Positions 11,537-43,262 of a stretch of DNA of 45,494 nucleotides are shown here, in pieces. This DNA comes from Acholeplasmatales bacterium. GTDB lineage: Bacteria > Bacillota_I > Bacilli_A > Acholeplasmatales > Anaeroplasmataceae. The notes below the pieces were generated by a model, which was not told the DNA's origin, did no database searches, and was given only the letters and a program-made list of their open reading frames with translations. Both the position numbers and the translations under genes were made by a program. Each line of letters starts with the position of its first letter. Position 1 is the first letter of the stretch. The DNA lies in contig JAEELJ010000038.1 in NCBI GenBank assembly GCA_016288855.1, positions 1 through 45,494 on the forward strand, written 5' to 3'.

Positions 11537-14500
11537 ATGAGTAAAACAAAGTCTTTTTTGTCTTTATTCTTTTTAGGAATATTAGGCTTCACAATTGTTT
11601 CATGTGGCGAAAGTAGCAATACTTTAACAAATACTCAAAGTAATACTACAACTAAAACTGTAGTAACAACTACTAACCCACATATTGAAACTACAACAGA
11701 AAATACAAAAACTGATGTAGATACAACAACCGTTAATACTACAACACAAAATCATACATCAACTATACATGATGTTACATCTTCACATAATACTACAACA
11801 TATTATGAAACAACAACAGAAGGTCATATTCATAATATGTATTTCCATTGTGCAAATCCTGCATCTTGTACAGATGATGGAAATTATGAATATTATGAAT
11901 GCCTTGATTGTGGTAAATGCTATTATGATTTTGAAGGTAAAACAGAAATTTATGATATTGTTGAACATGCATATGGGCATGATTTAGTACATCATCAATA
12001 TCAAGAACCTACATTATATTCTCTAGGTAATATAGAATACTGGGAATGTGTAAGATGTGAAGAAAAATTTAGTGATGAAGATGGACTTCATCCACTAGAA
12101 ATAGACCCAGTAATTCCTATGTTAGAAAGAAAATATATTTTTAGTAAAGATAATGTATTTATTGAAAACGATTATGTATACATAATTATATATGATGAAA
12201 ATGATACTGATTTCGAGTGTACAGTTTATGGAACATATGAAGTAAATATTGAACCTGTAACATGTCTAGAAGATGGATGTAGGACAACTACAGTCAGATT
12301 TACTGCAGATAGTATTAATTTATATTTAGGAAAAGAAGTATTAGATTCTAATTTAGAGTATGTATTTGAAACTACAATTGAAGCTAAAGGGCATACATAT
12401 TCTTATGAATGGAATTATGATTATGAATATCATTGGCATGATGCAACATGTGGCCATGATGTGACAACAGAAAAAGAAGCACATGAAATGGGTGAATGGA
12501 AGATTATGGCTCCAACCGCATCAACAAACGGTAAAGAAACTAGAAGTTGTACTAAATGTGGTTATACTGAAACTATAATAATACCATCTTACATGGTATT
12601 TGAAAGCTATAATGGTGGTTATAGAGCATCATTAAGAAAATATGATGATAAAGGTTATTCATATGAATATAATGGACCAAGCCATTTAATTATTCCTGAA
12701 ACTTATAATGGATTAAATGTGGTTGCGTTAGGTACAATTGATAATGAATTAATAGATGAGATTACAATCCCTAGATATGTAAAAGAATTATATACTCTAG
12801 GATCATCAATAAAGAAGATTCATTGGAATTGTAGTTATATTGATAATAATATGCTAAAGTATATCAATCAATTATCATTAGATGATTTCATTATTGAAAA
12901 TTACGGAACTATTACATTTGATGGAAGAGTTAAGCCGATCAATACTAAGAAATATACAGTTGATTCATCTTGCTATAGATACGCTGATGTTGATGGAATG
13001 CTATTTAGTACAGATTATAAGACTTTAATTTCATGTCCATTACTATATAAAGATGACGTAATTGATCTATCAAAATATGATACATTAATTATTATTGATA
13101 GCTGTGCATTCTTAAGCAATAATGCAAAGGAAATAATATTCCCAGCTAGCCTAGAACAAATTAGAAATTGTGCATTACAATATTCTCATATTGAAACATT
13201 AACAATTCCTAAAAAAGTTAATATGATTGGAATAGCTGCATTTAGTGAATGTGAATCATTAACAACAGTATATTTCAATGCATCTAATGTTAGTATTTCA
13301 TATAATAGTGATTATTCAACCTCACCTATTTTCTCACTATGTCCTCAATTAACTACATTGTATGTTGGTAATAGTGAAAATATAGTAAAAGTAATAAGTA
13401 AAAATACATTCCGTAGTACTAACAATTTAGTTAATGTATATATCCAAGATGGAATTGAGGCAATTGAAGAATATGCATTTATGAATTCTGGTGTTAAGGA
13501 ATTAGTAATTCCTGATACAATTGAATATATTCATAAATACGCTTTTGATGGTATAAGATTTGATAAGCTTACAGTTAAGGCAATTACATTACCTTATACT
13601 TCTATAAATGAATTAGTTATAACTGATGGAGATACCATAACTTATGATATGTTAGTTGATTTATATCATTTAGGTAAAGTAACATTACCTGAAGGTTTAA
13701 CATCTATAGATACTAAGGCATTCTATACTAAAGATATAGAAGAAATAAATTTACCATCAACTCTTTTAAATATTGGTGATAATGCATTCTATAACTGTTC
13801 TTCATTAAAATCTATAGATATTCCTAATAGTGTATCAAATATTGGTGAAAGAGCATTTTCTGGTTGTAGCAATCTAACTAAATTTAGCTTCCCAGATGGA
13901 ATAACAAAGTTAAATAATTATGTATTAAGTTCATGTGCAAAGCTAGAAGAAATATTTGTTCCAACATCAGTAACTCAATATGGTAGTTCTCCATTCTATG
14001 ATGATAATAATATCAAAATAGCAACAGGTCCTTTAAGCATATTTAGTTATATTCGTTATAGTGTTATAACATTTAATGGAACATCAGGTAATAAGTTATA
14101 CTTGGATTCTTATACATCAGTTCGTAATTTAACATTACCTAATACTATTGAAGAATTTAGCTTAAATGATAATACTTCAGTTGAATATATTGTAATTGAT
14201 GGATTTAAATATATTACTGATATTAATGGTAATCCAGTAGTATTATTAGGAGTAGAAGATAATACTATTGATACTTTAATAGTTAAAGAAACAGTTAAAG
14301 TTATTTCAGATAATGCATTTAATGGAAATACTACATTAAAGGAAGTAGATTTGAATGATGGTTTATATTCAATTATGGCAAACGCATTTACAGGCTGTAG
14401 TTCATTAGAATATATTTATATTCCTAAAAATGTAACTACTATTGGATGGGGAGCATTCTCTTATTGTACATCATTAACTGAAGTTACATTTGAAGATGAA

Positions 14501-15829
14501 AGTAACTATACTGGTACAAATAGAATATTTGGTGGAAGTAATGCAATTGAATCTATTACATGCCCAGCAAATGTATTATATGATGGATTTGTAATGAATG
14601 ATCAGACATCCCAACAAGCATTAAAGTATGTATCAATTAATGGTGGTACATATATTCCTTCAAATGCTTTATATAATGCTATTAACGTAAGTCATATTGT
14701 AATTCCTGATTACATTGAATCAATTGAAGAATATGCATTCTATAATAGTGGAATAAAAGGAGTAGATTTAAGTAAGAATATTACAAGAATTTATGAGAGA
14801 ACATTCTATAATAGTAAATTAGAGTCAATCTACATTCCAAAAAATATTAAAATTATTGATAAGGAAGCATTCTATAACTGTCCATTAGAACGTGTATCTT
14901 TTGAAGAAGGTTCATTGCTTGAATCAATTGGAAATTATGCATTTAATGGTGGAAAGTTTACTGAATTTAAGATTCCAAAATCAGTTACAAGTATTGGTGT
15001 AGGTGCATTCTATGAATGTAGTAATCTATTATCAGTTAGTATTCCATCAAGTGTGACTGTAATATTAGAAAATACATTCTATAAATGTATGAGCTTAACT
15101 ATTATTGTAATTCCTAATTCTATTACAAAGATTAGTGATGGTGCATTTGCATTCTGTAAAGTAGCATCAAGCGTAGTATTTGAAGAAGGATCAAGCTTAA
15201 ATTATATAGGCTCAGATGCATTTAAATATTGCCAAGGCTTAGAAACTATAGAAGTTCCTACAAGTGTTACATTTATTGGTGAATATGCATTCTCATATTG
15301 TAGTCAACTTAAGAGTGCAACTCTACCATTTGCTGGTACAAAGGTTTATACAAGTAGTGATGATGTGAAATATCCAGTTGCAATTCTATTTACTTCATCT
15401 AGAGATTCAACAGAATATCAAAGCATTGAGTGTAAATATGTAAGCTATTCTACAGGTTCTAGAAGAATGGTTGATGAAGTTTATTATGTTCCAAAATCAT
15501 TAACTAGTATAACAATTAATGGTGGAGGAAAGATTACAGAATACGCATTCTATGGCTATGATATATTAGAAGAGATTACACTTGCTCCATCAGTAAAAGA
15601 AATTGAGGCATATGCATTTTCTAAATGTAGTAATTTAACAACTTTAAATTTAAGAAATACATTAGAAAAGATTGGATCTTCAGTATTAGAGGATACATAT
15701 ATTACAAATATCAATTATAATGGAACAATATCACAATGGAATAGTATAGAAAAGAGCGATTTCTGGAAATATAATTGCTACACATTACAAACTATTACAT
15801 GTACAGATGGTGTAATTAATATAAGCTAA
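11537..15829 (+). CDS. BspA-like leucine-rich-repeat surface lipoprotein
   Basis: 1430 residues. Lipoprotein signal with lipobox IVSC (C23), then a Thr-rich linker (about 30-95) of the kind that spans the wall. Three short CxxC modules follow: CLDC at 122-125 in a TDDGNYEYYECLDCGK context, CVRC at 171-174, and SCTKCG near 336; such paired-Cys modules are common in surface proteins of gut Firmicutes. From about 350 to the end there are many LRR_5 (BspA-type) repeats with the recurring pattern IPxxVxxIGxxAFxxCxxL. No sortase signal, so the anchor is lipid. Role: adhesion or host/biofilm protein interaction is usual for the family; the ligand is unknown. Single-gene unit with its own promoter and terminator. 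Confidence 0.88.
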   Translation: MSKTKSFLSLFFLGILGFTIVSCGESSNTLTNTQSNTTTKTVVTTTNPHIETTTENTKTDVDTTTVNTTTQNHTSTIHDVTSSHNTTTYYETTTEGHIHNMYFHCANPASCTDDGNYEYYECLDCGKCYYDFEGKTEIYDIVEHAYGHDLVHHQYQEPTLYSLGNIEYWECVRCEEKFSDEDGLHPLEIDPVIPMLERKYIFSKDNVFIENDYVYIIIYDENDTDFECTVYGTYEVNIEPVTCLEDGCRTTTVRFTADSINLYLGKEVLDSNLEYVFETTIEAKGHTYSYEWNYDYEYHWHDATCGHDVTTEKEAHEMGEWKIMAPTASTNGKETRSCTKCGYTETIIIPSYMVFESYNGGYRASLRKYDDKGYSYEYNGPSHLIIPETYNGLNVVALGTIDNELIDEITIPRYVKELYTLGSSIKKIHWNCSYIDNNMLKYINQLSLDDFIIENYGTITFDGRVKPINTKKYTVDSSCYRYADVDGMLFSTDYKTLISCPLLYKDDVIDLSKYDTLIIIDSCAFLSNNAKEIIFPASLEQIRNCALQYSHIETLTIPKKVNMIGIAAFSECESLTTVYFNASNVSISYNSDYSTSPIFSLCPQLTTLYVGNSENIVKVISKNTFRSTNNLVNVYIQDGIEAIEEYAFMNSGVKELVIPDTIEYIHKYAFDGIRFDKLTVKAITLPYTSINELVITDGDTITYDMLVDLYHLGKVTLPEGLTSIDTKAFYTKDIEEINLPSTLLNIGDNAFYNCSSLKSIDIPNSVSNIGERAFSGCSNLTKFSFPDGITKLNNYVLSSCAKLEEIFVPTSVTQYGSSPFYDDNNIKIATGPLSIFSYIRYSVITFNGTSGNKLYLDSYTSVRNLTLPNTIEEFSLNDNTSVEYIVIDGFKYITDINGNPVVLLGVEDNTIDTLIVKETVKVISDNAFNGNTTLKEVDLNDGLYSIMANAFTGCSSLEYIYIPKNVTTIGWGAFSYCTSLTEVTFEDESNYTGTNRIFGGSNAIESITCPANVLYDGFVMNDQTSQQALKYVSINGGTYIPSNALYNAINVSHIVIPDYIESIEEYAFYNSGIKGVDLSKNITRIYERTFYNSKLESIYIPKNIKIIDKEAFYNCPLERVSFEEGSLLESIGNYAFNGGKFTEFKIPKSVTSIGVGAFYECSNLLSVSIPSSVTVILENTFYKCMSLTIIVIPNSITKISDGAFAFCKVASSVVFEEGSSLNYIGSDAFKYCQGLETIEVPTSVTFIGEYAFSYCSQLKSATLPFAGTKVYTSSDDVKYPVAILFTSSRDSTEYQSIECKYVSYSTGSRRMVDEVYYVPKSLTSITINGGGKITEYAFYGYDILEEITLAPSVKEIEAYAFSKCSNLTTLNLRNTLEKIGSSVLEDTYITNINYNGTISQWNSIEKSDFWKYNCYTLQTITCTDGVINIS

Positions 15830-15933: not shown

Positions 15934-18381
15934 ATGAGGGAAAGCTTTTTAGACGGTACAAAAATCGATTCATTTTTTAAAAATAATAATGAAATTGATA
16001 TTAATCAATTTAATAATAAATACTATTTAAGTAATTATTGTAATGATAATAAAAATATTGTTACAAATATTATTCAAGATTTAATTGATGATATAAGTGA
16101 TAATGGTGGAGGCTTATTAATTGTTGATAATATATATCATACAGGGGCATTATATTTTAAAAACAATGTAAACTTATGTATTTTAGAAAATGCTAAGCTT
16201 ATAGGTAGTAATAATATTAATGATTATCCATTATGTTATACAAGAATAGAAGGAGAAAGTGGATTATATTTTCCTGCATTATTAAACTTTATTGGAGTAT
16301 CTAATACATATATATTTGGTAAGGGTATTATTGATGGTAATGGACTTAATAGCTGGAAGAGCTTTTGGACAAGAAGAGAATGGAATGATAAAGCAACTAA
16401 TAAGGATGAACAAAGACCTAGATTAATATATGTATCTAATTCTTTTAATGTAAATATTTGTGGCTTAACATTAATTAATTCCCCTTTTTGGAATATACAT
16501 ATATATAAATCAGAATATATAAAATTAATTAATTTAAATATATATTCACCTGAAGTACCAGTAAAAGCTCCATCTACAGATGGTATTGATATTGATTATG
16601 CGAGATATGTATTAATTAGTAATAACACATTTGATGTTAATGATGATGCAATAGCCCTAAAGGGTGGTAAGGGAGCATACGCAGATAAAGATTTCCACAA
16701 TGGTATAAATGAATATATTATTATTGAGGATAATAATTTTAAATTTTGTCATTCATGTTTAACCTTAGGAAGTGAGTCAATTCACAATAAGGATATTATT
16801 TTTAGTGGTATAGATTCAATTGAATCTAATAATATAATTTGGTTTAAGGTTAGACCGGATACGCCTCAAATATATGAAAATGTATTAGTAGAAGATATAA
16901 AAGGTTATTCTAAAGCATTAATATATATTTGGCCTTGGACTCAATTCTTCGACTTAAAGGGAAGAGATGATACTTTTAAAAATATTGTAAGAAATATTCA
17001 TATTTCTAATACTAAATTAGAATGTGATAATTTCTTTAAGGTAACTAAATCTGATCAATATATATTAAAAGATTTTTACTTAAATGATTTAGATATTAAT
17101 TGCTTAGTATCTGGATTTGATATTAATAAGGTAGATAATTTATTTTATAAAAATATTAATATAAATGAAAAATATAAGAATCTAGAAGAAAAAGTAGATG
17201 AAATATCTAGAATATTTATTAGTGAACATATTAAAACTGTCAATAAATATAAAGAAAAAGTAATTGTTGTTTCAAATCAATATAATGGTATTTGGTTAGA
17301 ACATGTTTATGATTCAATAATGTATGGTAATCTATTTGATGATTTTAGTATTGCTAAAAACACTATTAATTTATTCTTAGATTTAATGAATGATAAAGGC
17401 CAATATCCTTGCTTCATAAAGGATAAGGAAGGTGTTGGTTATTCTCAGCTACAGGAATGCGTTTCTTTTGCAAGACTAGGCCTTATTGTATATAGAAAAA
17501 CAAATGATCAAGAATTATTAGAAAAACTATATAATGGTACTAAGAAGTGGGTAGATTTTTTATATAAATATAGAATGACTTTAGGAAAAGGCTTAGTTGA
17601 AATGTTTGTTGGATATGATACAGGCCATGATAATAGCGCAAGACTAGATAATATGAAATATAAAACTTATTATTCAATTGATGGTATAAGACAGGATGCA
17701 TCAATAAAGCCAGATAGTAGGGGTATTATTGCAGTTGACTTAAATTGTAATTTATATATGACATTAAAGTCATTACACGAAATGGCAATAATCCTAAACG
17801 ATAGTAATAATATTGATAAATACGATATGCTTGCAAGAAGAATAAAAAAGAACTTGTTTAAGGAATGCTTATCAAAAGAGGATTCATTCTTTTATGATAG
17901 AGATTCTAATGGTTTAAGAAAATATAGGTCTAGTCAAATATTTTTGCTTTTCCAAGAAAGAGTATTAGATAAAGAAAAGGATAAGGAATTAATAGATTTA
18001 ATATATAATAAATATATTAAGAATCCTAAAGAATTCTATACGGAATATCCATTTCCTTCAATGTCTATATCTGATCCATCCTTTAAAGACCATAAAATGC
18101 CAAATTCTTGGGGATATTACAGTCAAGCATTAATTACCTTAAGATGTTCACTTTGGATGGATTATTATGGATATAAGAAGGAATATGATCATATATTATA
18201 TAAATGGTTAGATAGATTTATTAAATATTATGATGATATGCCATTTGGTCAGGAATTAGATCCTATAAGTGGAGAATGTAGTGGAGCATCGCTAAATTAT
18301 TCTACATCTATATTATTATTCTTATATGCAATAAGAAGATTAAAAATTGTAAAATCACATGATATAATACCAACGTTTTAA
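15934..18381 (+). CDS. GH28 polygalacturonase-like domain fused to a six-hairpin glycosidase domain
   Basis: 815 residues with no signal peptide. Residues about 50-410 form a right-handed beta-helix of GH28 type: STDGIDID (214-221), NDDAIALK with the DD pair at 237-238, H273 in the FCHSCLTLGSES block that replaces the usual GHG, and WFKVRPDT (303-310) for the usual RIK. Residues about 445-805 look like an (alpha/alpha)6 six-hairpin glycosidase of the mannosylglycerate-hydrolase-like or trehalase-like class (GYDTGHDNSARLD, NSWGYYSQALIT, ELDPISGECSGASLNYS). Predicted to cleave uronic-acid or rhamnose-containing oligosaccharides, probably in the cytoplasm. The fusion may couple two successive cuts. 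The next gene starts 12 bp downstream. Confidence 0.75.
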   Translation: MRESFLDGTKIDSFFKNNNEIDINQFNNKYYLSNYCNDNKNIVTNIIQDLIDDISDNGGGLLIVDNIYHTGALYFKNNVNLCILENAKLIGSNNINDYPLCYTRIEGESGLYFPALLNFIGVSNTYIFGKGIIDGNGLNSWKSFWTRREWNDKATNKDEQRPRLIYVSNSFNVNICGLTLINSPFWNIHIYKSEYIKLINLNIYSPEVPVKAPSTDGIDIDYARYVLISNNTFDVNDDAIALKGGKGAYADKDFHNGINEYIIIEDNNFKFCHSCLTLGSESIHNKDIIFSGIDSIESNNIIWFKVRPDTPQIYENVLVEDIKGYSKALIYIWPWTQFFDLKGRDDTFKNIVRNIHISNTKLECDNFFKVTKSDQYILKDFYLNDLDINCLVSGFDINKVDNLFYKNININEKYKNLEEKVDEISRIFISEHIKTVNKYKEKVIVVSNQYNGIWLEHVYDSIMYGNLFDDFSIAKNTINLFLDLMNDKGQYPCFIKDKEGVGYSQLQECVSFARLGLIVYRKTNDQELLEKLYNGTKKWVDFLYKYRMTLGKGLVEMFVGYDTGHDNSARLDNMKYKTYYSIDGIRQDASIKPDSRGIIAVDLNCNLYMTLKSLHEMAIILNDSNNIDKYDMLARRIKKNLFKECLSKEDSFFYDRDSNGLRKYRSSQIFLLFQERVLDKEKDKELIDLIYNKYIKNPKEFYTEYPFPSMSISDPSFKDHKMPNSWGYYSQALITLRCSLWMDYYGYKKEYDHILYKWLDRFIKYYDDMPFGQELDPISGECSGASLNYSTSILLFLYAIRRLKIVKSHDIIPTF

Positions 18382-25409: not shown

Positions 25410-25678
25410 AATTTCATAATTAAACCGTTGATATGGAGATAAAACATTAAAAGTGCTTATAGAGAGCAGGGGATGGTGGAAGCCCTGTGGATTACTATTT
25501 TGTAAATGGACCATAGAGGGAATAGCGAAAAAGAAGAAATTCTTTAGTATCCTATTACGTTTTCATACGTCAGTTGATAGAAATGTGTTGGCATTTTAAA
25601 GTGTATGGCATCAAAGTCATAAAATTAGGTGGTACCGCGGGTTATTACTCGTCCTATGTATTTAGGACGAGTTTTTTT
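25410..25678 (+). promoter_or_regulatory. T-box leader, tryptophan (UGG specifier)
   Basis: Stem I carries the AGAGA and GGTGGAAG elements (about 25460-25485) and a specifier TGG at 25507-25509, in the usual AxTGGACC setting. The T-box AGGTGGTACCGCG is at 25627-25639. The terminator is ACTCGTCCT (25647-25655) with AGGACGAGT (25664-25672) and T to 25678. Uncharged tRNA-Trp should bind and allow read-through into trpE. The specifier agrees with the downstream pathway. Confidence 0.93.
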
Positions 25679-32112: not shown

Positions 32113-32136
32113 TGATTTATGATTGAGGTGATGGCC

Positions 32137-34602
32137 ATGAAATTTATAATTTCAAGTATTATTTTATTGCTTGGAAGTGGTGGATTAGGATTTTTATCAT
32201 TCTATTACTCTTTTATTGTAGAAAAGAAAAACTATCCAATAGCTATATCTGCGATTGCTGGAGCATTATTATGCCTTATTTTAGCATTCGTTTTTATTCA
32301 TCGCTTCTTAGTTAGAAAGTTAAAAAATAATAACGCAAGTATTAGTGAACAGCTTGCTCAATGGAAAAACATTTCATATTATGCTCAAAAGGCAGGAGAT
32401 GAATCATTCCACTCATTACCTATTGGAATTATGATTTATGATGAAGCATACCAAATTTCATGGGCTAATGAATATGCATTATCTAGATTTGGCGAGAATA
32501 TTGTAAAAGATGAGCTTAAGGTTACTGATGTTTCACCTGAATTACATGAATCAGCAATTACTCAAAATAAAGATAAGTTTTTATTACAATATAAAAATAA
32601 ATTTTATGATGTCACACACAATTCTGATTATAGAATTCTTTATTTTTTTGATGAAACTGCAAGAGAAAATTTAAATAAAAGATATAACGATAGAATTACA
32701 GGTATTGGTATTATTGCACTAGACAACCTAGAAGAATCATTAAAGAAGTTTGATGTACAAGAAAAAGCAAATATTCGTGGTCAAATTTTAGGTATTGTTA
32801 CAGATTGGTTAGAAAAATATAGATGTTATTTACAATCAACAGCTGGAGATAGATTCTTATTCATTATGGACCAAGAATCTTTAAATGCAATGATTCAAGA
32901 TAAATTCTCTATTTTAAATGATGTTCATAATGTTGCACAAACAAATAGATTAAAGGCAACTTTATCTATGGGTATTGCATGCTATGACGTATCTTATGAG
33001 GAATTAGGAACTATCGCTAATAATGCAATTGAATTAGCTGAAAAGCGTGGTGGTGACCAGATAGTTGTTAACGTTGAACATAAGAAGATTCAATTCTACG
33101 GCGGTAATGCAAACTCACAAGAAAAGAATACATTAATTGAAGCACGTATGCAGGCTGTTTCATTAAAGGAAGCAGTTGAGGATTCAAGTGATGTATTAAT
33201 CATGTGTCATAATTTTGCAGATACTGATGCTTTTGGTTCTATGATTGGTGTATTCCATATGGTTCAATCTGGAAATAAACCAGTTAAGATGGTGTTTGAT
33301 CCTGAACGTGCTGATAGAACAGTTCAGAAGGTTTATGCTGGTCTTGAGGCTCATCCTGAAATTATAGATAATTTTATTGATTGTGAAACAGCATTAGAAT
33401 TAATTAAGCCTACAACATTATTAATTGTTACAGATACACAATCACCATCATTAGTAATGTTTAAGGATTTATTTGCTAAGGCAGAAAGATTATCAATAAT
33501 TGACCACCATAGAGCAGGTGATCCTGGATACTCTGGATATTTAACTTATTATGTAGAAACATCTGCATCAAGTGCAGTAGAATTAGTTTCTGAAATGTTT
33601 ATGTTCTATAATTCAAATATTACAGTTTCTCCAATTGAAGCATCTATTATGTTATCAGGTATTATAGTTGATACAAATAACTTTACAATGCGTGCTGGTA
33701 CGAGAACATTTGAAGCTGCTGCAACATTAAAATCAATGGGTGCAGATATGATTTTCGTTAAGAAATTATTACAAGAATCTCTAGATTCAGAAAAAATCAT
33801 TGCAGATGCTCTATTAAAATCAGAAATTGTATATGGTAGATTTGCAATAAGTAATGTTGGTGATACTAAGATTCCTGATAGAACTATGCTTGCTAAGATA
33901 TCAGATCAGCTATTAGAGGTTGCTGGTGTTGAAGCATCATTTACAATTGGTAGAATTGATAGTAATACAGTTGGTATTTCTGCAAGAAGCTTAGGTGACT
34001 CTGTTAATGTTCAGGTTATTATGGAACTAATGGGTGGTGGAGGACACTTTAATAGTGCTGCATCACAAATTAAGGATAAGTCTGTTGATGAAATTAAAGA
34101 TGATTTAATTGCACAACTAAGAGAAGAATATATCGATAAGACTACTGCAACAATGCAGGTATTATTATTAGAGGATTTAAAAGGCAAAGGCAAGAAGGAT
34201 GATGTTATTACAGTATCATCTAATTTAGCAAATAAGCTTATAACTGAAAAGAAAGCAGTTGAAGCATCTGATGATGCATTAAAGAAGCTTGAAGCTAAGA
34301 AAGCGAAAGAAAAGAAGCAGGGTGAAGCTTATAAGGATATCCTTAAGAAGTTTAGACAAGATATCGATGGTAAGACTATAACTGTTTATTTAACTACTAA
34401 GGAAGGTAATACGCTAAAGCATATTACTAAGACATTAATTTGTGAAGAATTTATGAAACAAACTGGAATTACTTTAAACAGAAGCAAGGTTGAATTACCT
34501 GGTGAAATTTCTGCAAGAGGTATTTATACAGTAACTGTAAGACTTGATACTGATGTTACTGCATCATTTGCGGTTATTGTAGAGGATAAGCCTTCAGTTT
34601 AA
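32137..34602 (+). CDS. gdpP: Cyclic-di-AMP phosphodiesterase GdpP with C-terminal ribosomal bL9-like domain
   Basis: 821 residues. Two N-terminal TMs (about 2-27, 33-55), a PAS-like domain (about 85-170), a degenerate GGDEF (AGDRF at 236-240), DHH (HNFADTDAFGS about 358-368, DHH 456-458) and DHHA1 (GGGGHFNSAAS). It should hydrolyse c-di-AMP to pApA at the membrane. Unusually, from about residue 673 to the end it carries a bL9 homologue (MQVLLLEDLKGKGKKDDV, ICEEFMKQTGITLNRSKVEL), clearly akin to the rplI product just downstream. In the fused copy the rRNA-binding GYANHL segment has become SNLANKL. ATG 32137 (AGGTG six bases upstream) is preferred to ATG 32131 or 32119. No internal ribosome site precedes the bL9 part. 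Confidence 0.9.
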   Translation: MKFIISSIILLLGSGGLGFLSFYYSFIVEKKNYPIAISAIAGALLCLILAFVFIHRFLVRKLKNNNASISEQLAQWKNISYYAQKAGDESFHSLPIGIMIYDEAYQISWANEYALSRFGENIVKDELKVTDVSPELHESAITQNKDKFLLQYKNKFYDVTHNSDYRILYFFDETARENLNKRYNDRITGIGIIALDNLEESLKKFDVQEKANIRGQILGIVTDWLEKYRCYLQSTAGDRFLFIMDQESLNAMIQDKFSILNDVHNVAQTNRLKATLSMGIACYDVSYEELGTIANNAIELAEKRGGDQIVVNVEHKKIQFYGGNANSQEKNTLIEARMQAVSLKEAVEDSSDVLIMCHNFADTDAFGSMIGVFHMVQSGNKPVKMVFDPERADRTVQKVYAGLEAHPEIIDNFIDCETALELIKPTTLLIVTDTQSPSLVMFKDLFAKAERLSIIDHHRAGDPGYSGYLTYYVETSASSAVELVSEMFMFYNSNITVSPIEASIMLSGIIVDTNNFTMRAGTRTFEAAATLKSMGADMIFVKKLLQESLDSEKIIADALLKSEIVYGRFAISNVGDTKIPDRTMLAKISDQLLEVAGVEASFTIGRIDSNTVGISARSLGDSVNVQVIMELMGGGGHFNSAASQIKDKSVDEIKDDLIAQLREEYIDKTTATMQVLLLEDLKGKGKKDDVITVSSNLANKLITEKKAVEASDDALKKLEAKKAKEKKQGEAYKDILKKFRQDIDGKTITVYLTTKEGNTLKHITKTLICEEFMKQTGITLNRSKVELPGEISARGIYTVTVRLDTDVTASFAVIVEDKPSV

Positions 34603-34669
34603 CGTTATCATAAAAAAAGTTATTGTATTACATAAAAGCAAGTAATATATTTATAAAGGAGCTTTTAAA

Positions 34670-35110
34670 ATGAAAATTATTTTATTAAAAGATGTTAAAG
34701 GCAAAGGCAAGAAGGATCAAATTGTTGATGTTGCACAAGGTTATGCAAATCATTTAATTGTATCTGGTTCTGCAGCAATTTATAACGATGAAAATACAAA
34801 AAAACTAGAGGAAAGAAAAGCTGATCAAGCTTTACAATTAAAACTAGAAAGAGAAGCAAATTTAGCATTAAAGAGTGAGATTGATTCTAAACAAATATTA
34901 TGCTATATAAAGATTGGCGCAAATGGTAAAACTTTTGGCCAAATTACTAAAACTCAGGTTTGTGAAGAATTTGAAAAGCAAACTGGAATTAAGCTTAATA
35001 AGCAAAAATTAGAAATGAATGATATCCATGGTGTTGGTATAACTGAGGTTAAGGTTAAGCTAGATACTGATATCATTGCAGTATTTAAGGTAAAAACAGA
35101 AGGCAAGTAG
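34670..35110 (+). CDS. rplI: 50S ribosomal protein bL9
   Basis: 146 residues, normal length for the family. N-terminal rRNA-binding domain (MKIILLKDVKGKGKKDQIV, GYANHLIVSGSA), a connecting helix, and the C-terminal domain (TKTQVCEEFEKQTGIKLNKQKLEM). It sits between gdpP and dnaB as in Bacillus. Its sequence parallels the C-terminal part of the gdpP product, so one copy arose by duplication. Ribosome site AAAGGAGC. Confidence 0.95.
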   Translation: MKIILLKDVKGKGKKDQIVDVAQGYANHLIVSGSAAIYNDENTKKLEERKADQALQLKLEREANLALKSEIDSKQILCYIKIGANGKTFGQITKTQVCEEFEKQTGIKLNKQKLEMNDIHGVGITEVKVKLDTDIIAVFKVKTEGK

Positions 35111-35131: not shown

Positions 35132-36496
35132 ATGGCAAATAATACAACTAATACTAATGTTAAGATTGTTCCAGCCGATGAAGACGCTGAAATTGCGGTT
35201 TTAGGATGTTGCTTCCTAGAACCTTCAATGATTGCCCCAAAAATCTTAGATGAATTAGCAGTAGAGGATTTTTATAATCAAAAAAATTCAATTGTATTTA
35301 TGGCTATATCAGAATTATATAAAAATGGTATAGCAATTGATGCAACTACTGTTTTGGGTGAACTTGAAAGAAAAAACATGCTTACTCAGGCAGGTGGCTA
35401 TGACTATATTGCATCAATTTATGAGCATAGCTATACAATAGAAAATGTTGAAGTATATATATCTCGTATTTTGGATTCTTCACTTAGAAGAAAAACAATT
35501 GATAAATTAAGAGATTTATCTGAGATTGGTTATGATAGAGAAGTTAATACGTTTGATTATGTTGAAAATGTCGAACGTTCAATTTTTGAAATATCTAATG
35601 CAAGAAAGGGTGGAGCATTAGTTGGTATTTCTGATGTAATTAAGAGTGTAAGTGACTCTATTGCAAAAAGAAGTCAGCAAAGTGCTAATCTAATTGGTCT
35701 TGATACTGGAATTAATTCATTAAATCGTATTACTCAGGGATTTCAGCCTGGACAATTGATTATTCTTGCGGCACGTCCTGCGATGGGTAAGTCTGCGTTT
35801 GCGTTAAATCTTGCACAAAACATTGCTAGATTTAATAAAAAGGGACATGCATCTGTTGCTGTATTTTCACTTGAAATGTCAGCAGAACAGCTTGTTGAAA
35901 GAATGATGGCTTGTGATTCTTCAATTTCACTAGGTAAGCTAAAAACTGGTCAATTTGATAATCAAGAAGCTACACGTTTTGCAACATCATCAGCTAAAAT
36001 CTCAAGATTGAATATTTATTTTGATGATACATCTAACATTAGTGTTGCATCTATTCGTGCAAAATGTCGTTCTTTAAAGAGTAATAATAATCTTGATATG
36101 ATTGTAATTGACTACTTACAGTTAATTGAACCAGATCAGGCATCAGCAAAGCTATCTACTTCTGAACGTGTAACAAAGATTACTCGTGGATTAAAGTTGA
36201 TGGCAAGAGAATTAAATGTACCTGTAATTGCATTATCACAGCTATCACGTGAGGTTGAAAAGCGTGATGACAAAAAGCCTATTATGGCGGACTTAAGAGA
36301 TTCAGGTTCTATCGAACAGGATGCCGATATAGTTATGTTCTTATATCGTGAAGATTATTATTTAAAAAGTGCTTCAACTCGTCAAGGTGAAGCTGATTTG
36401 ATTATTGCAAAGAACCGAAGCGGTTCTACGCATGAAGGTTTACCATTTACATTTATTGGTGAATTACAGAAGTTTATAGAAAAAGCAGAGGATTAA
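35132..36496 (+). CDS. dnaB: Replicative DNA helicase
   Basis: 454 residues; hexameric helicase at the replication fork. The N-terminal domain (EIAVLGCCFLEPSMI) binds primase; the RecA-like domain has Walker A ARPAMGKSAFAL, Walker B MIVIDYLQLI, ALSQLSREVEKR and the arginine finger region DLRDSGSIEQDAD. Ribosome site GGAGGG. Named dnaC in Bacillus. Confidence 0.95.
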   Translation: MANNTTNTNVKIVPADEDAEIAVLGCCFLEPSMIAPKILDELAVEDFYNQKNSIVFMAISELYKNGIAIDATTVLGELERKNMLTQAGGYDYIASIYEHSYTIENVEVYISRILDSSLRRKTIDKLRDLSEIGYDREVNTFDYVENVERSIFEISNARKGGALVGISDVIKSVSDSIAKRSQQSANLIGLDTGINSLNRITQGFQPGQLIILAARPAMGKSAFALNLAQNIARFNKKGHASVAVFSLEMSAEQLVERMMACDSSISLGKLKTGQFDNQEATRFATSSAKISRLNIYFDDTSNISVASIRAKCRSLKSNNNLDMIVIDYLQLIEPDQASAKLSTSERVTKITRGLKLMARELNVPVIALSQLSREVEKRDDKKPIMADLRDSGSIEQDADIVMFLYREDYYLKSASTRQGEADLIIAKNRSGSTHEGLPFTFIGELQKFIEKAED

Positions 36497-41856: not shown

Positions 41857-42082
41857 AAATTTTTAAATAGCCAATAAAGAGACTATAGAAGGATTAATTA
41901 ATCCAAGAGAGTAAACGTTTGGTGAAAGTTTACATTAATTACCTTTGAATCTACCTCTTTGGTGAATCTAATCAATTCCGGTTGATTACCGTTAAAGAAT
42001 CATGAGTGAGGTTGCCTAATTAGGGTGGTACCGCGGATTAATAAATTCGTCCCTTTTCCAGTAGTGGAGAAGGGATTTTTTT
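41857..42082 (+). promoter_or_regulatory. T-box leader, serine (UCU specifier)
   Basis: Stem I has AGAGAGT and GTTTGGTGAAAG (about 41904-41931), then the specifier TCT at 41950-41952 in GAATCTACC. The T-box AGGGTGGTACCGCGG is at 42022-42036. The terminator is TCCCTTTTCCA (42050-42060) with TGGAGAAGGGA (42065-42075, one G-U) and T to 42082. Uncharged tRNA-Ser should switch on serC onward; UCU is a Ser codon and agrees with the genes. Confidence 0.92.
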
Positions 42083-42167: not shown

Positions 42168-43262
42168 ATGAGTAGAGTATTTAATTTCTCAGCTGGTCCA
42201 GCTGTTTTACCAGAGGAAGTTTTAAAAGAAGCAGCAGCAGAAATGTTAGATTATGAAGGTTCAGGCATGTCTGTAATGGAAATGTCTCATAGATCTAAAC
42301 CATTCCAGAAAATATTAGATGAAGCAACTCAGGATTTAAGAGATTTAATGAATATTCCTGATAATTATAAGGTTATATTTGTTCAAGGTGGTGCAACTCA
42401 GCAATTCGCAGCTGTACCAATGAACTTACAAACTAAGGGTGGAAATGCCGTTTATGTTGATTCAGGTAATTTCGCTCATAAGGCATTTGAAGAAGCACAA
42501 ATTTTCTATGGGGAAAATGCAATTGTTGGTGCATCTTCAAAGGAAGACAATTATACATATATTCCAGATGTAGATAATCTTCCTATCAATGATAAAACAG
42601 ATTATGTTTATATTTGTGAAAATAATACAATATTTGGTACAACTTTCCATAAGCTACCTAATACACAAGGTAAGCCACTTGTATCTGACCAATCATCAAT
42701 GTTCTTATCAAGACCAGTTGATGTAACTAAGTATGGTGTTATTTATGCAGGTGTTCAAAAGAACGTTGGTCCAGCTGGATTAGTTATTTTAATTATTCGT
42801 GAGGATTTAGTTAAGTCAGAATTTGTAAATCCAACTGCAACTATGCTTAAGTGGAAGACACAGGTTTCAAAGGATTCTTTATATAATACACCAAACTGCT
42901 GGTCTATTTATATCTGTGGTAAGGTATTTAAATGGTTAAAGAAGAATGGTGGTCTTAAGGCTATGGAAGAAAGAAATGAAGCTAAGGCCAAGGTATTATA
43001 TGATTACTTAGATCAATCTAAGTTATTCAAGAATACAGTAAGAAAAGATTCTCGTTCTATTATGAACGTTTGCTTCCGTACAGGTGATGAAGAATTAGAT
43101 GCTGAATTCATTAAGGGAGCTCAAGCACATAATATTGCATCAATTAAGGGTCATAGATTAGTTGGTGGTATGCGTGCTTCAATTTATAATGCTATGCCAA
43201 TTGAAGGTGTTAAGGCATTAGTTGAATATATGAAGGAATTTGAAAAGGAGCATTTAAAGTAA
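42168..43262 (+). CDS. serC: Phosphoserine aminotransferase
   Basis: 364 residues; converts 3-phosphohydroxypyruvate to phosphoserine using glutamate. FNFSAGPAVLPEEVL, MEMSHRS, QGGATQQFAA, SDQSSMFLSRP, the PLP Lys in GVQKNVGPAG, and the C-terminal GHRLVGGMRASIYNA are intact. Preceded by the serine T-box leader; one base separates it from serA. Confidence 0.95.
   Translation: MSRVFNFSAGPAVLPEEVLKEAAAEMLDYEGSGMSVMEMSHRSKPFQKILDEATQDLRDLMNIPDNYKVIFVQGGATQQFAAVPMNLQTKGGNAVYVDSGNFAHKAFEEAQIFYGENAIVGASSKEDNYTYIPDVDNLPINDKTDYVYICENNTIFGTTFHKLPNTQGKPLVSDQSSMFLSRPVDVTKYGVIYAGVQKNVGPAGLVILIIREDLVKSEFVNPTATMLKWKTQVSKDSLYNTPNCWSIYICGKVFKWLKKNGGLKAMEERNEAKAKVLYDYLDQSKLFKNTVRKDSRSIMNVCFRTGDEELDAEFIKGAQAHNIASIKGHRLVGGMRASIYNAMPIEGVKALVEYMKEFEKEHLK

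Follow-up and report, generated by a model that had tools for sequence, protein, structure and literature searches.

A predicted two-product gdpP–rplI gene in the Acholeplasmatales and, in one lineage, its likely division between a ribosomal rplI and a GdpP whose bL9 tail is non-ribosomal

Within the window (the whole 45,494-nucleotide stretch of DNA analysed here, contig JAEELJ010000038.1 of an Acholeplasmatales bacterium), a gene for a GdpP-type cyclic-di-AMP phosphodiesterase continues in frame into a complete copy of ribosomal protein bL9, and a separate bL9 gene (rplI) stands behind it (Table 1). Why does a second-messenger enzyme end in a ribosomal protein, and which gene would supply bL9 to the ribosome, here and in relatives that have only the fusion? 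The answer that we consider likely, from comparison of the sequences, is that the fusion is a two-product gene in this order, and that in the lineage of the window its roles have been divided: a separate rplI serves the ribosome, and GdpP keeps a bL9 tail with no ribosomal role.

Table 1. Features of the gdpP–bL9 locus, with positions in the window.
Feature	Position	Strand	Basis or remark
gdpP–bL9 fusion gene, 821 aa	32137..34602	+	Pfam/NCBIfam matches
Predicted former internal ribosome-binding site and start	34117..34155	+	junction comparison, duplex energy
bL9 domain of the fusion, diverged	34153..34599	+	Pfam, residue comparison, 1div match
Spacer ahead of free rplI, 67 bp	34603..34669	+	own Shine-Dalgarno AAGGAG
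Free rplI (bL9, 146 aa)	34670..35110	+	TIGR00158 100.7 bits (cut-off 58.6)
Presumed replicative helicase gene of the gdpP–rplI–dnaB order	35132..36496	+	ORF

The fused frame runs uninterrupted from the ATG at 32137 to the TAA at 34600–34602 (an ATG at 32119 is also a possible start), with no stop codon between the GdpP and bL9 parts. The encoded protein consists of hydrophobic N-terminal helices, a PAS domain, a degenerate GGDEF domain, DHH/DHHA1 and then the complete bL9; the Pfam profiles PAS_GdpP, GGDEF_GdpP, DHH, DHHA1, Ribosomal_L9_N (residues 673–718, E 1.7e-11) and Ribosomal_L9_C (residues 738–816, E 8.5e-11) all score above their cut-offs, and the L9 model TIGR00158 is passed with 66.7 bits (cut-off 58.6). 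These matches and the open frame bear out the initial annotation, which had described a full-length bL9 in frame behind DHHA1; bL9 similarity in profile searches is confirmed by L9_N, L9_C and TIGR00158 alike. The intact rplI that it had placed 67 bp downstream does begin exactly 67 bp past the fused stop, and the motifs shared by the two copies (CEEF.KQTGI.LN and KGKGKKD) and the loss of Gly-Tyr from the fused one (SNLANKL against GYANHL) are as it had described them. A missed stop or an assembly error between the two parts is excluded by the continuous frame together with the same two-copy layout in an independent metagenome-derived genome (G004; CACZRY010000147.1, locus L033), the proteins of which are 85–86% identical to those of the window.

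The catalytic residues of DHH/DHHA1 are invariant in 66 fused homologues, and all are present in the window protein (H358, D362, D364, D433, D456-H457-H458 and G634-H637, comprising the DHH and GGGH metal-binding motifs). In its domains and catalytic residues the fusion fits a GdpP c-di-AMP phosphodiesterase, for which hydrolysis of c-di-AMP is predicted. A structure model built on the 66 fused homologues (mean pLDDT 88; pTM 0.46, hence the placement of the domains is not fixed) matches the GdpP catalytic domain 5xsi (E 4e-37, 36% identity) and bL9 1div (E 3e-9), with the bL9 fold retained; the fused bL9 domain by itself matches this solved bL9 over its full length (E 1.8e-19).

The fusion shares with GdpP (YybT) the PAS domain, the degenerate GGDEF domain and a DHH/DHHA1 unit with intact catalytic residues, and differs from it in the extra C-terminal bL9. 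The same full-length architecture is that of NF011110/PRK14538 (“putative bifunctional signaling protein/50S ribosomal protein L9”), which the window protein matches over residues 41–817 of 821 (model positions 57–834 of 838) with 685.5 bits, short of the curated cut-off of 707. On this comparison it is a divergent relative of the family with the same architecture and not a member; the score may reflect the divergent bL9 tail and the distance to the reference members, and the window protein is further distinguished as a derived copy adjoining a free rplI. The family name implies a single bifunctional protein, and a separate internal start is absent from it. No paper on a gdpP–rplI fusion turned up in the literature searched. 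The fusion is already known as this named family; what is new is a predicted route to ribosomal bL9 in relatives that have only the fused gene.

A search for bL9 located it in 153 of the 160 genomes of the order, and the intact bL9 frames among the matches listed, from which the form of the frame was taken, are of the fused form and about 790–870 residues long, the few shorter frames coming from fragmented or partial assemblies. A fused frame and a free rplI occur together in only two of the 160 genomes, that of the window and G004; two further genomes have two bL9 hits, G371 with two identical-scoring fused frames, and G394. The search for the DHHA1–bL9 architecture in relatives, also suggested by the initial annotation, found it widespread in the order and present in some families of the class, other families having separate, adjacent gdpP and rplI. 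In the tree the fused genes form two large clades with one free member among them, which is compatible with a single origin as well as with several. Judged from this distribution, fusion is the ordinary condition throughout the order and the free rplI is the exception; the fused state being general, the fusion predates the duplication, and the free copy came later.

Of 37 conserved bL9 positions, the fused copy departs from 12 in the window and from 11 in G004, and the free copy from 4 and 3, whereas the other fused genes of the order depart from a mean of 1.0 and a maximum of 5. The losses of the fused copy in the window include Gly24-Tyr25 (to N-L), Phe89-Gly90 and a deleted Gly83; among the remaining fused and free sequences Gly24 occurs at a frequency of 1.00, and the free rplI of the window retains Gly24-Tyr25. 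This free gene is probably the ribosomal copy in the lineage, and the fused domain, a bL9 homologue by sequence, is not classed here as a working ribosomal bL9. Between the window and G004, dN/dS is 0.147 for GdpP, 0.115 for the fused bL9 and 0.135 for the free bL9; nonsynonymous and synonymous differences in the fused bL9 are clearly unequal (p about 2e-16), and its frame is unbroken. Such purifying selection on an intact frame makes the fused bL9 unlike a decaying passenger, and it seems to have been retained as a component of GdpP. Of the two possibilities raised in the initial annotation, a link to ribosomes or a plain structural tail, the evidence in this lineage points rather to a tail, one that lacks conserved bL9 residues but is still under selection as protein.

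As to how the free copy arose, tandem duplication is favoured over gain from outside. In the best tree the two kinds of copy, free and fused, of the window genome and G004 are sisters (99/87) inside the fused bL9s of the genus; both copies share departures at otherwise invariant positions (K95 to T/S and D110 to N), and the free copy lies in tandem at the ancestral place. Against this evidence it is unlikely that the free rplI was acquired from outside the genus or order by horizontal transfer, leaving the fused copy free to diverge, a reading that draws on the mere 43% identity of the free and fused copies, on the long stems that both occupy in the tree, and on AU tests in which no alternative placement of the free copy is rejected (p 0.17–0.21), leaving room for one outside (p 0.17). 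Transfer from outside would leave the remainder of the two-product explanation intact. Under the duplication that we favour, the bL9 part of the fusion would have been duplicated in tandem in the lineage of the window genome and G004, and the resulting free gene, which has a ribosome-binding site of its own, would have become the source of bL9 for the ribosome; the site inside the fusion would then have decayed, and the fused bL9 would have lost its binding to rRNA and become a dedicated C-terminal part of GdpP.

The spacer ahead of the free rplI is identical at 65 of 67 positions between the window and G004, whose synonymous sites differ at about 40–50%, and the trpA–gdpP and rplI–dnaB spacers are far more diverged between the same genomes. 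A consensus scan of its + strand found no promoter or terminator, and no unusual RNA fold was detected in it (z −0.8). It contains an inverted repeat, TATTAC...GTAATA. The gene downstream of the free rplI is assigned from sequence and position, and we take it to be dnaB.

In fused-only species the fusion is the only bL9 gene, and the ribosomes therefore need a source of free bL9. The two-product explanation would provide it by internal initiation, whereas it could also be supposed that these species use the whole fusion protein as their ribosomal bL9 and that GdpP tethers some ribosomes to the membrane, coupling c-di-AMP breakdown to translation. The fused-only species do have no second bL9 gene, and their bL9 retains the conserved residues, Gly24-Tyr25 included; we nevertheless regard it as quite unlikely that the fusion protein fills this role, since a conserved internal Shine-Dalgarno (SD) sequence and start codon offer free bL9 directly, and a lone fusion would not need an SD conserved across varying codon registers. 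bL9 is moreover needed at ribosome numbers, far above the usual levels of GdpP. Tethering and a supply of free bL9 may coexist.

The evidence for internal initiation lies at the start of the bL9 part, where fused-only relatives have an in-frame ribosome-binding site followed by ATG or GTG, the bases just 5′ of the ATG resembling GAAGGAGGCGGAAGTGTTATG. A predicted internal start, recognized as a conserved in-frame SD with a start codon at a domain boundary, is present in these relatives. When the SD was scored as its pairing energy with the anti-SD in the 20 bases before the bL9 start, the median was −9.3 kcal/mol in 148 fused genes vs. −0.8 at 2932 control codons (in-frame ATG/GTG elsewhere in these genes), and the internal SD matched or exceeded in strength those of ordinary starts in the lineages concerned. 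When the complete anti-SD tail was used, all 131 fused-only genes outside the phytoplasmas scored −6.4 kcal/mol or lower, and 9% of the control in-frame ATG/GTG codons reach −6 kcal/mol. The only exceptions outside the phytoplasmas are the two genomes with a free rplI, that is, G004 (−2.3 kcal/mol) and the window, whose own gene lacks this mark of an internal start (−1.5 kcal/mol, or −0.4 with a shorter anti-SD, the anti-SD being assumed for this genome, in which the 16S rRNA 3′ end was not found with the pattern tried); there the ATG is kept at 34153, and the SD, which in fused-only relatives is GGAGG or similar, is lost. Phytoplasma genes also keep the ATG and have a weak SD at the internal start, their ordinary sampled starts being weak as well. 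The weak-SD set comprises L047, L057, L060, L066, L075, L081, L091, L092, L099, L104, L107, L111, L113, L120 and L122, from a small-genome genus that we take to be probably phytoplasmas.

The start codon and the wording of the SD bear on whether the site is selected as such. Of the 148 fused genes, 139 begin the bL9 part with ATG and 9 with GTG, and none with another codon; GTG makes up just 10% of the Val codons in these genes, yet it is the sole Val codon at the bL9 start. The Met could instead be retained there for protein reasons. The internal SD is read in two codon registers that give different peptides (GG. and KEE/QEE), and across 122 distinct peptides the choice of codons leans towards the SD more than the encoded peptide requires (pooled Z −14), a value to be read as strong consistency and not as an exact probability, since the fused sequences are related and p values overstate their independence. 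Gene by gene the synonymous test of the SD is seldom significant, and inside any one family the SD follows largely from the peptide. This last observation, and the occurrence of the same SD inside gdpP of unfused relatives, would suit an unused site, either a relic of the unfused pair or a side effect of conservation of the linker peptide. That the SD goes unused is very unlikely, however: it persists while the linker peptide varies among families, codon choice and GTG usage favour it as described, and it is gone in exactly the two genomes with a separate rplI, as expected under past selection. The pooled codon test and the change of register give no support to the SD as a pure by-product of the peptide. 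We infer that the internal site is used, so that a fused-only gene would yield a full-length, membrane-bound GdpP–bL9 by read-through and free bL9 for the ribosomes by initiation at the in-frame internal ATG or GTG.

Cas11b (PMC11899642) and the Rpn toxin-antitoxins (PMC10327210) offer precedents in which the C-terminal part of a protein is reported to be made also alone from an internal in-frame start. Their inner products are reported from experiments, whereas that of gdpP–bL9 is predicted from sequence; unlike those, it would be a ribosomal protein inside a second-messenger enzyme.

The internal site appears to have been inherited from separate genes. In the gdpP–rplI–dnaB(dnaC) operon of Firmicutes, which has the same gene order as the window, the ribosome-binding site of rplI is embedded in the 3′ end of gdpP (PMC6398277); the two genes, which can overlap (PMC10576035), stay separate, in contrast to the fused frame here. 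The order gdpP–rplI–dnaC has been reported as such (PMC6398277), as has rplI–dnaC/dnaB–prfA in phytoplasmas (PMC3750655). In Streptococcus gallolyticus the rplI ribosome-binding site within the gdpP 3′ end was protected during deletion of gdpP (PMC6398277), and in S. pneumoniae, where gdpP and rplI overlap, loss of rplI had no effect on growth (PMC10576035). Many unfused members of the class likewise carry the rplI SD inside the gdpP 3′ end, the gdpP stop falling anywhere from 23 bases beyond the rplI ATG to a few bases ahead of it, and usually in another frame; the embedded site is therefore probably older than the fusion. Two loci, L159 (G061) and L162 (G201), have separate genes in the same frame, with the gdpP stop 3 nt before the rplI ATG and nothing but this stop codon dividing the SD from the ATG, and represent either a state a single codon change from fusion or a recent split. 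From such an arrangement, the two frames would be joined, and the start site left in place, if a stop were lost or a small indel occurred, and it is in this way that gdpP and rplI may have become one frame in the Acholeplasmatales and their kin, with the embedded rplI ribosome-binding site retained.

This order of events reverses that of the initial annotation, in which a tandem duplicate of rplI fused to gdpP within this lineage and then diverged; the fusion and the complete second bL9 adjoining it are real, but that sequence of steps, suggested by two adjacent copies of which the fused one is the more diverged, can be all but discarded, given that the other bL9-bearing genomes of the order have the fused frame, that the free copy occurs in this pair alone, and that the best tree nests both copies among the fused bL9s of the genus.

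What the bL9 tail does for GdpP is a separate matter. We suggest, tentatively, an extra-ribosomal role, such as the detection of ribosomes or of free rRNA, or a part in the organisation of the enzyme. Such a role, if true, would explain why the fusion is found throughout the order despite free bL9 from the internal start, as well as the purifying selection on the window tail after loss of its conserved residues, and a single two-product gene would then tie c-di-AMP turnover to ribosome supply. With a widely conserved ribosomal protein located inside a signalling-enzyme gene across an order, annotation can overlook bL9, and the ribosomes of the order would depend on a start site within another gene. 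The lineage of the window amounts to a natural experiment, in which a separate rplI is present, the internal ribosome-binding site is gone and the altered fused copy is still selected. Both the drawing of two proteins from one fused gene by conserved internal starts and the part played by the bL9 tail in c-di-AMP metabolism thereby become testable questions.

Elsewhere in the window, T-box leaders (Rfam RF00230) were found at 25419–25659, ahead of a run of trp genes from near 25629, and at 41865–42057, ahead of a class-V aminotransferase gene (42168–43262). The gene at 15934–18381 encodes a protein of 815 aa with a glycosyl hydrolase family 28 part (residues 113–247) and an MGH1-like/alpha-rhamnosidase-type glycosidase part (residues 501–784), a combination that seemed unusual, and the 1430-aa protein encoded at 11537–15829 consists mostly of BspA-type leucine-rich repeats.
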